The notes beneath the pieces were generated by a model. The model was given only the letters and a program-made list of their open reading frames with translations. It had not been told where the DNA came from and did not search any database. From Flavobacteriales bacterium (GTDB lineage: Bacteria > Bacteroidota > Bacteroidia > Flavobacteriales > JANQLC01), in the NCBI GenBank assembly GCA_028280815.1, contig JANQLC010000018.1:1-34152 (forward strand): 34,152 nucleotides of DNA, read 5' to 3'. Each line of letters begins with the position of its first letter. Within the stretch, counting starts at the first letter, position 1. Below are positions 3,896 through 27,500 of this stretch, piece by piece. A program made the position numbers and the translations under genes.

Positions 3896-4026
3896 AATTT
3901 ACCGATTTTTGAGCATTGCGCAAAGGCCTCGTATGGTATCCACCCCGTGCGAGAGTCGTGCCTTTTAGGTTGGCTCTTTCGATTTCACCCTTATTAGATG
4001 ACCGCTTAAAAAGTGAGGCTTATCCC

Positions 4027-4267
4027 TTGCTTTCCGCCTTTTGTGAAGGTTTGAAAAGGACGGCATTTCTCCATTCCCCTTGGAGAATTAAAAGGGGATT
4101 CTCTATCCTTCTCCCTGTGTAGATCCACCCGCTTTGACCTCTGGCCTTTGCTTTCCGCCTTTTGTGAAGGTTTGAAAAGGGCGGCATTTCTCCATTCCCC
4201 TTGGAGAATTAAAAAGGGGCATTCTCTGTCCTTCTCCCTGTGTAGATCCACCCGCTTTGGCCTTTGC
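4027..4267 (+). repeat. Two tandem copies of a ~121-bp repeat, with a third decayed copy beginning near 4264
   Basis: TTGCTTTCCGCCTTTTGTGAAGGTTTGAAAAGGrCGGCATTTCTCCATTCCCCTTGGAGAATTAAAA... occurs at 4027 and again at 4148 (offset 121), with few differences. The next TTTGCTGTCATCCTTTTGTGAGCGTTTAAAAAAGG is a degenerate continuation. Confidence 0.85.
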
Positions 4268-4665
4268 TGTCATCCTTTTGTGAGCGTTTAAAAAAGGCTT
4301 ATTTCTCTGGTGTTTATCTCTGAAGGAGACCACTTGGAAAGGGCGCTCGCCCTTGTCCTATAGTTCGGTCTAAATCCCAACTTTACCCCTTGGCGTTTGC
4401 TCTTTATAGGGGCTTAAAAAGGGGCTCTTTTCTCACCCGTTGGCAGTTTAAAAAGAAAAGGCTTACCCCTTTGATACTTGGTCCGTATAAGACAGCTTGA
4501 AAAAGACGCTTGTTTTTTGACTTCGTCCCATGTGGTGATTTAAAGATCGGGATTGGCTCTTATCCCGTGTATCGGTTTGGAAGAGTGGGCTTATTTTTTG
4601 TTCCTGTGGAGCAGTCTGAAAGGCTTTTTGCTTTTATCTCATGGTTTGAAAAGATGCTTCTCTTT
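4040..4665 (+). repeat. Degenerate quasi-periodic intergenic repeat array (locus A, GGTTTGAAAAGGgGCTT core on + strand)
   Basis: Recurrent cores by eye at about 4050, 4088, 4171, 4207, 4287, 4333, 4412, 4447, 4497, 4539, 4577, 4615 and 4646 (TTTRAAAARG / TTTGGAARAG / CTGAAAGG variants). Irregular spacing mostly 30-50 nt. Confidence 0.6.
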
Positions 4666-4779
4666 TCGGCTGTAAACCCGATCAAACACCCGCTCCATCA
4701 ACCGGCTTGACAAACGCATAAGTGCAGGGTTCAGTCCACGTTATCACGTAAAAATGTAAAGCGCGATAGCTGGGTCTCA

Positions 4780-23570: not shown

Positions 23571-23599
23571 GCAAATCCGACGAGACTTTACGAGCTCGA

Positions 23600-24320
23600 C
23601 ACAAGCGCGCAATCAGCGAGACAAACACCAAAAAACAAGCCCTCTTCTCAAGCCGACCATTGGAAATAAAAGAGCAAGCCCTGACTTCAAACCGTCCAGC
23701 GTCAAATAGGCGACAAAGTCGGCTGTGCTGACCACAGACCCATACAAAAAAACAAGTCCCGCTTTCAAGTCGCATCCAGAGACAAATACAAAGCGTAGGG
23801 TTGGAGGCTCAGACCGGCCCATAGGACAAGAGCGATCCCCTTTTCAAACGGTCTCCTTCAGAGACGAAACCCAAAAAACACCCCTCACTTCTCAGACGCA
23901 CGCCAAGTGAAAAATACAACGAACGACAGCGGGCTGGCCACGGGAATAAAAAGGGTCTGCTTTCAAACCCGCACACACAGGGACTAACGCGGCTCGCGGC
24001 TGTGGGCGAGTGGGATATCATTTTCAAACCCGCACACACAGGGACTAACGGCAAATATAAGCTGCCACGCACTGCCAAAAAAGTTCAAACCCGCGCACAC
24101 AGGGACTAACGCCATATAAAAGCGATATAAAAAGCCACGATTTATTCAAACCCGCGCATACAGGGACTAACGCATAAAAATTTGATTATCAACAACTTAA
24201 TACTGTTCAAACCCGCGCACACAGGGACTAACGCCAAAACACAGGTCGTCTTTCAAACGTCAAAAGGAAGTAAAAATAAGCGCAGCGTTTGAGCTGACTC
24301 CCTCAGAGACAAACCCCAAA
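23600..24320 (-). repeat. Degenerate quasi-periodic intergenic repeat array (locus B1), flanking and enclosing the 61-bp array
   Basis: On + strand, recurrent (T)TTCAAAC/CTTCAAACCG/CTCAGAC cores followed by CAGAGACAAA-type blocks and CCAAAAAACAAG, near 23647, 23686, 23764, 23808, 23843, 23891 and 24252. Spacing about 35-48 nt. Confidence 0.6.
23962..24233. CRISPR. Small CRISPR-like array: 5 repeats of 28 nt (TTCAAACCCGCrCAyACAGGGACTAACG), 4 spacers of 33 nt
   Basis: Repeats at 23962-23989, 24023-24050, 24084-24111, 24145-24172 and 24206-24233: exact 61-nt period. Each repeat differs from consensus by at most 1 nt. The four spacers are mutually unrelated. No cas genes in the window. Confidence 0.7.
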
Positions 24321-24529
24321 AACAAAGGCTGGTGTGTTCCAGACCCCCACGCGGATTGCCTATCGCAATTGGGACTTGTTTTCGTCTGAATAGATAGAAT
24401 GACGATTCTCTTACGCCATTTCAATGCAAGAAAAATTGTATTGCCGGGTAGTATGTGTTTTCCAAAAAAAGGACGATTCGTTTTTCGGACTATATTTGCA
24501 ACTGGAGCCTAGGGCAGAAACCAAAAAAA

Positions 24530-24995
24530 TAAAAGTCGCCTTTTAAACTGGATCCCACAGGTAAAAATCAAAGAGCAACCCTAGATTTTCAGACCCACGC
24601 CAGCTCAAAATACGCGGCAAAAGTGACCGGTTTGACCTATTGGATGCACACCTCTTACCCAAATCTGCGCAGCAGGTCAACGAGGGTGTTTCCCATGTGA
24701 TCGATACCGAGATTAGACTGTTGAAACAAAACGCGGGGATAAAAAAACAAATCCTTTTTCGACCGATCGGCACAGCGCAAAAACGAGAGGATAAGACCCG
24801 CTTTTCAGCTGACATAGGAGACAAAGAGCTCCCCCTTTTCAAACCGACTGAGAAGACAAATACCCAAAAACAAGCCCGCCCTTCAGACCTTCCACAGAGA
24901 CAAAGGCCAAAAAATGGAGCCGAATTTCCAAACTGCCAAGCGGGAACGGAAAATAAGCCTCGTCCTTCAGGTCGCAGGGGAATCGATGGACGAAA
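24530..24995 (-). repeat. Degenerate quasi-periodic intergenic repeat array (locus B2)
   Basis: Cores on + strand: CCTTTTAAACTGG (~24540), GATTTTCAGACC (~24585), CTTTTCAGCTGACATAGGAGACAAAG (~24801), CTTTTCAAACCGACTGAGAAGACAAATACCCAAAAACAAG (~24835), CTTCAGACCTTCCACAGAGACAAAGGCC (~24881), TTTCCAAACTG (~24926), CTTCAGGTCG (~24965). Confidence 0.6.
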
Positions 24996-25001
24996 AACCC
25001 A

Positions 25002-27239: not shown

Positions 27240-27500
27240 AATACGCCGCTCTTCAAAACCGCCACCCCAATACAAGAGCAAAAGACAATCCGCCTCTCAA
27301 ACCGACTCAAAAGACAAAGACTGAATTTTCAAGGCGAAGCACAGAGAGGAGAAAAGAATGAGCTCCGTCTTTAGACAGCCTAGCGGACAAAAGCACAAGC
27401 ATAAGGCCGAGTTTCAAATTCCCCCGAATTGAGATATATGATAAAGATGAGCGCGGCTTTTCAAACCGTCTCGAGTTCGAATAGGGGATAAAAACCAACG
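27240..27500 (-). repeat. Degenerate quasi-periodic intergenic repeat array (locus C)
   Basis: CTCTCAAACCGACTCAAAAGACAAAGAC (27294-27321) closely matches the 24835 unit in locus B2. CTTTTCAAACCGTCTCGAG at ~27457, CTCTTCAAAACCG at ~27249 and AATTTTCAAGG at ~27325 are further copies. Confidence 0.55.

Follow-up and report, generated by a model that had tools for sequence, protein, structure and literature searches.

How CRISPR arrays originate where none existed before is an open question, and it is raised by an array lying between nadE and dnaG in the window, one entire 34-kb contig (34,152 nucleotides). Its five repeats, TTCAAACCCGC(A/G)CA(C/T)ACAGGGACTAACG, start at positions 23962, 24023, 24084, 24145 and 24206 of the + strand, all 28 nt long and spaced by exactly 61 nt, and the four spacers between them are mutually unrelated and each exactly 33 nt (Table 1). 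These coordinates bear out the near-identical repeats, the regular steps and the unrelated spacers that an initial annotation of this DNA had described. The repeats occur in two variants, with CCCGCAC in R1 and R2 and CCCGCGC in R3-R5; R4 has a private C->T change, and the base 3' of the repeats is C, G, C, C, and C from R1 to R5. Two readings had been put forward in the initial annotation, one being a CRISPR array that is orphan or cas-distal, the other a local repeat amplified in a CRISPR-like manner. Our analysis indicates that the array is very probably a neo-CRISPR, whose spacers were inserted off-target by the type I-E Cas1-Cas2 of the host itself, and which is likely inert in interference.

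Table 1 Features of the nadE-dnaG array (window positions) and loci with repeats at lag 60-61
Feature	Position	Strand	Description
nadE-dnaG intergenic region	23571..25001	+	packed with degenerate units of a genome-wide intergenic family
Left flank of array	23941..23961	+	weak fit to family unit tail, p=0.07; presumed growing (leader-like) end
Probable neo-CRISPR array	23962..24233	+	five 28-nt repeats, four 33-nt spacers, period 61
Spacer 1	23990..24022	+	33/33 identical to host chromosome, G000:C37:138780-138812
Spacer 2	24051..24083	+	29/33 against host C24:6044-6076
Spacer 3	24112..24144	+	no source in genome, phage records or viral contigs
Spacer 4	24173..24205	+	no source in genome, phage records or viral contigs
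Last repeat + right flank	24206..24250	+	one continuous family unit by profile fit; taken as original target
W	window array, nadE-dnaG		5 repeats
N2	C10:18599 (L130:18599-18748)		3 repeats; start of PfkB-family kinase ORF
N3	C12:681		2 repeats
N4	C31:2844		3 repeats
N5	C12:26693	ambiguous	2 repeats; in OMP_b-brl_3 gene; boundary uncertain
N6	C12:94768	ambiguous	3 repeats
N7	C17:25639 (L193:5639-5727)		2 repeats; in DUF2586 ORF adjoining phage lysozyme

The genome is the only member of its genus, and apparently also of its family, among the genomes compared, and its assembly is fragmented (1.59 Mb in 42 contigs). The window itself holds no cas gene, as the initial annotation had stated and as the list of open reading frames confirms; contigs C20 and C15 carry the cas loci. 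Elsewhere in the window, positions 2506-2564 form a SAM-II riboswitch (Rfam RF01726, 60.5 bits), which is located upstream of a metK-like ORF. The C20 locus is a complete type I-E system (cas3, cse1, cse2, cas6e, cas7, cas5, cas1, cas2), all genes being open reading frames that score above an NCBIfam cut-off, in the case of cas3 with the model for its helicase domain. Cas1e and Cas2e of the matching type, both over their NCBIfam cut-offs, are therefore resident. The I-E array on C20, hereafter the main array, has 37 repeats GTCTTCCCCACGCATGTGGGGGTGTTTC and 33-nt spacers (two of 32) at a period of 61, and C15 holds a II-C locus with a period of 75-77. The 28+33 geometry of the window array is that of the resident I-E array, and not that of the II-C array. 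A genome-wide search for cas genes and further copies of the repeat, as the initial annotation had advised, finds the former on C20 and C15 and the latter in no other array.

The repeat of the window array has its source in the intergenic DNA around it. The blocks TTTCAAAC and CAGrGACnAA, which had been described as common to the array repeat and the flanking units, are real and reveal the origin of the repeat. The units of this family, TTTTCAAACCG..CACAGAGACAAA..CCAAAAACAAGCCC, are about 45 nt long and degenerate, and are spaced by roughly 40-48 nt. The same family is also seen at window positions 3990-4680 (-) and 27240-27500 (+), and across the genome. We built a family profile on 49 noncoding copies, none of them within the array, starting from exact noncoding seeds; an unconstrained fit over 70 nt had shifted to A-rich sequence and was discarded in its favour. 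The fit of the exact-seed profile has p=0.008 for the repeat body and p=0.001 for the right flank, with a combined p<5e-5. The next TTTCAAAC after the unit containing the last repeat lies at 24251, and collapsing the four 61-nt steps sets the TTTCAAAC spacing to 46 nt, the normal family spacing, as expected if the spacers entered one unit with duplication of 28 bp. These features indicate that the array repeat is a pre-existing, non-CRISPR sequence of the host.

Non-tandem duplicates were sought in 1.17 Mb (74% of the genome) at all lags of 40 to 110, the two canonical arrays being excluded from the counts. Perfect 24-nt matches at lag 60-61 occur at seven loci, each with a different repeat, compared to four matches at the other 69 lags combined. 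The chance expectation at two lags is 0.12 loci (P ~ 5e-11; 3e-9 with the window left out), and a control drawn from other Flavobacteriales (80 loci, 1.0 Mb) gave zero at lag 60-61. The arrays at these loci have repeats of 28 nt and spacers of 33 nt, one of 32, with the boundary uncertain in N5. By this measure, the genome appears to contain at least six further neo-arrays besides that of the window, each with a repeat taken from local sequence. A lag-61 match in L170 (21/24, in an inverted-repeat family) was left out of the count. L170 (contig C40) is small and differs from the other stretches examined in being rich both in the inverted-repeat family CCTGGTGCAGCGCACCAGG with its variants and in simple repeats of the CTTTTA type. 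Off-target insertion by the II-C system was also considered and rejected, since, apart from the II-C array itself, lags 75-77 gave a single weak match (21/24, at lag 77).

At some loci the sequence before insertion can be recovered. Removal of two 61-nt steps from N2 lets the PfkB-family kinase ORF read through (MLHIQSLTASRPIVIIGAAFGDIILAMDRLPVRGGDEVGREVSRQIGGCAFNVA...) and shifts the start of its Pfam match from profile position 28 to 4, and removal of the insert from N7 gives a DUF2586 ORF of 370 codons. The OMP_b-brl_3 gene at N5 is out of frame with the insert present or removed. By inspection, W, N3, N4, and N6 are located in intergenic-family units. Since the genes at N2 and N7 and the family units host the 28-mers, these are ordinary host sequence. 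The N7 region is also apparently prophage-like.

On the chosen strands, C8 and G21 are invariant among the seven targets, and C9 and G20 are mostly conserved; in the I-E repeat these four positions belong to the stem. The summed similarity of the targets to that repeat peaks at register 0 (75, compared to 47 +- 7 and a maximum of 67 at other offsets), even if that of any single target is weak (7-15 of 28) and the strand given by it is ambiguous, the stem being palindromic. The window repeat is identical to the resident I-E repeat at 12/28 positions; many places in the genome show similarity of this kind, and the choice of this particular unit is therefore not explained by its sequence.

The spacers point to the chromosome as one donor. 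Within the neo-arrays, 7/13 spacers are copies, exact or nearly so, of other parts of the host chromosome: W.S1, N2.S1, N2.S2, N7.S1, and one N6 spacer match exactly, and N4.S1 and N5.S1 with one difference. The protospacer of spacer 1 of the window array falls in the first part of an ORF that is glpD-like judging by its sequence, and is preceded by GAA, an AA-type PAM. The match of spacer 2 is just upstream of a tRNA-Arg gene and has no adjacent AA; it is at best a relative of the source. The best self match of spacer 4 is at chance level (E 0.1). As for mobile elements, to which the initial annotation had looked for a source, none was found for the four spacers in phage records, nor for spacers 2-4 in viral contigs, only chance-level partial matches being returned. 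That annotation had held that conserved spacers with no such matches would argue against a genuine CRISPR; the lack of matches does not decide the matter here, since spacer 1 derives from the host chromosome. Moreover, 23 of the 36 spacers of the main array, compared with phage records, gave no match either, and a lack of phage matches is therefore uninformative.

The canonical arrays (L010:12143-14336 and L009:9480-10600) also contain host-matching spacers, 3/36 in the main array and 3/15 in the II-C array. The neo-arrays are enriched in them (Fisher p = 0.0016 vs the main array, 0.0026 vs both canonical arrays). Five of the seven neo-array protospacers (W.S1, N2.S1, N4.S1, N7.S1, and N6) have AA immediately on their 5' side, an excess with P ~ 0.0015, allowing either strand and with the strand of N6 set by AA itself. 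Most of the type I-E PAMs given in PMC8482600 contain AA. In the main array, no AA adjoins the protospacers of the three self-matching spacers, one of which maps to an rpoB gene end; PAM-bearing self spacers are thus present in the neo-arrays and none was seen in the main array. This distribution, albeit in few cases, is what we would expect if neo-arrays gave no working crRNAs. The order of the spacers is informative as well. W and N6 (the latter read on its PAM strand) have an exact self spacer in the leftmost place and N4 has a near-exact one there, and the rightmost spacers of W, N6, and N4 have no match. Together with the R1/R2 variant, which is missing from R3-R5, the leftmost self spacers suggest that the arrays grow at their left end, as ordinary arrays do.

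We propose that the I-E Cas1-Cas2, encoded on another contig, mistook a 28-bp stretch of a family unit for a CRISPR repeat because its C8C9...G20G21 core resembles the I-E repeat stem. A 33-nt prespacer would have been joined at staggered positions to both ends of this stretch, and gap repair would then have duplicated the 28 bp. Three subsequent insertions, probably at the left end, would have led to the five-repeat array, with prespacer donors that would include the host's own chromosome. Equivalent events would have taken place at six or more other sites of the genome, a new local 28-mer serving as the 'repeat' each time.

The same observations bear on other explanations. An ordinary cas-distal or orphan array would be a second I-E array, kept vertically or acquired, whose repeat has diverged. 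The exact I-E geometry and the I-E system resident on another contig are in line with this, and to that extent the first proposal of the initial annotation was correct, but the array does not carry the genome's repeat. Its own repeat is unique to this locus: a genome search allowing up to three mismatches found five occurrences, none outside the array, the repeat is absent from 397 other Flavobacteriales genomes, viral contigs contain no exact match, and a plasmid search with the array locus returned none. In addition, the surrounding family runs on through the right end of the array, and the six other arrays use other local repeats, two of them within genes that are intact without the insert. 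We consider an ordinary array highly improbable. The second proposal, amplification of the local family by recombination or slippage with no participation of Cas proteins, was right in tracing the repeat to that family, but the array is not a tandem amplification. Family units are 40-48 nt apart with homologous intervals, whereas the array spacers are unrelated 33-mers, at least one of which comes from a distant gene, and lag 60-61 alone is in excess, also within genes that do not belong to the family (N2 and N7). Such an origin is extremely improbable.

It is also conceivable that off-target insertion produced a working array, transcribed and processed by Cas6e, that serves immunity or regulates genes of the host, for instance the glpD-like one. 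Every I-E effector gene is open, and spacer 1 matches the glpD-like gene perfectly next to an AA-type PAM. Nevertheless, such a target should be lethal given an intact cas3. The weak stem noticed in the initial annotation is borne out by computed folding, which gives 3 bp and -3.6 kcal/mol compared to -11.7 for the main I-E repeat, so that the array repeat does not form a stable hairpin for Cas6e. No leader was recognised at the left flank, and the promoter search at the array gave one promoter-like site, on the opposite strand, with 0.9 expected by chance. We regard a functional array as very unlikely. The weak hairpin, unlike that of the main repeat, and the tolerance of PAM-flanked self spacers suggest that the neo-arrays are probably inert for interference.

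Nivala, Shipman and Church are said to have obtained, in 2018, mostly single insertions with Cas1-Cas2 overexpressed in E. coli, and reportedly pointed to a few putative cases from nature, in Yersinia pestis and Sulfolobus islandicus. Neo-CRISPR loci arising from off-target Cas1-Cas2 integration are attributed to Nivala et al. 2018 (doi 10.1038/s41564-017-0097-z), which PMC11788318 and PMC9456107 cite. Those loci reportedly share with the window array insertion outside the CRISPR locus, at CRISPR-like sites, and duplication of the target into a repeat. They differ from the present case, in which a single natural genome has at least seven arrays of up to four spacers, largely of host DNA, several of the arrays being seeded in one intergenic family. 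All the testable defining features of a neo-CRISPR formed by off-target I-E integration appear, at the level of sequence, to be present here.

Compared to the organism's own C20 array, the window array has the same 28-nt repeat length, 33-nt spacer length and period of 61, mostly C/T 3' of the repeat, and AA beside protospacers; it differs in its repeat, weak stem and host-DNA-enriched spacers, and has neither adjacent cas genes nor a recognised leader. Orphan arrays, which lack cas genes, are mainly treated as signs of degenerating systems (PMC8616872). The window array resembles them in being short and without neighbouring cas genes, whereas this genome does have a cas system and every one of the repeats consists of local DNA that is not CRISPR. 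Against a partial search of the literature, the number of arrays per natural genome, the multi-spacer growth, the self origin and the family landing pads provisionally appear to be new.

Off-target integration has been demonstrated with overexpressed Cas1-Cas2, and natural examples are few. This single natural genome shows at least seven apparently independent array births with one to four spacers each, and, with donors identifiable and empty sites too at some loci, it constitutes a natural data set that informs on target rules, PAM use, growth polarity, and self-spacer tolerance. Other genomes could be screened cheaply for non-tandem duplicates at the lag of their resident array. The finding also calls for caution, as orphan arrays are not necessarily relics and their spacers are not necessarily foreign. 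It seems reasonably likely that the I-E Cas1-Cas2 of this lineage acts as a leaky, genome-wide insertion mutagen that starts dispersed neo-arrays whose spacers are host-derived, with interruption of genes and with intergenic-family units as landing pads. If this is true, the birth of CRISPR loci would be visible at several stages within one genome.
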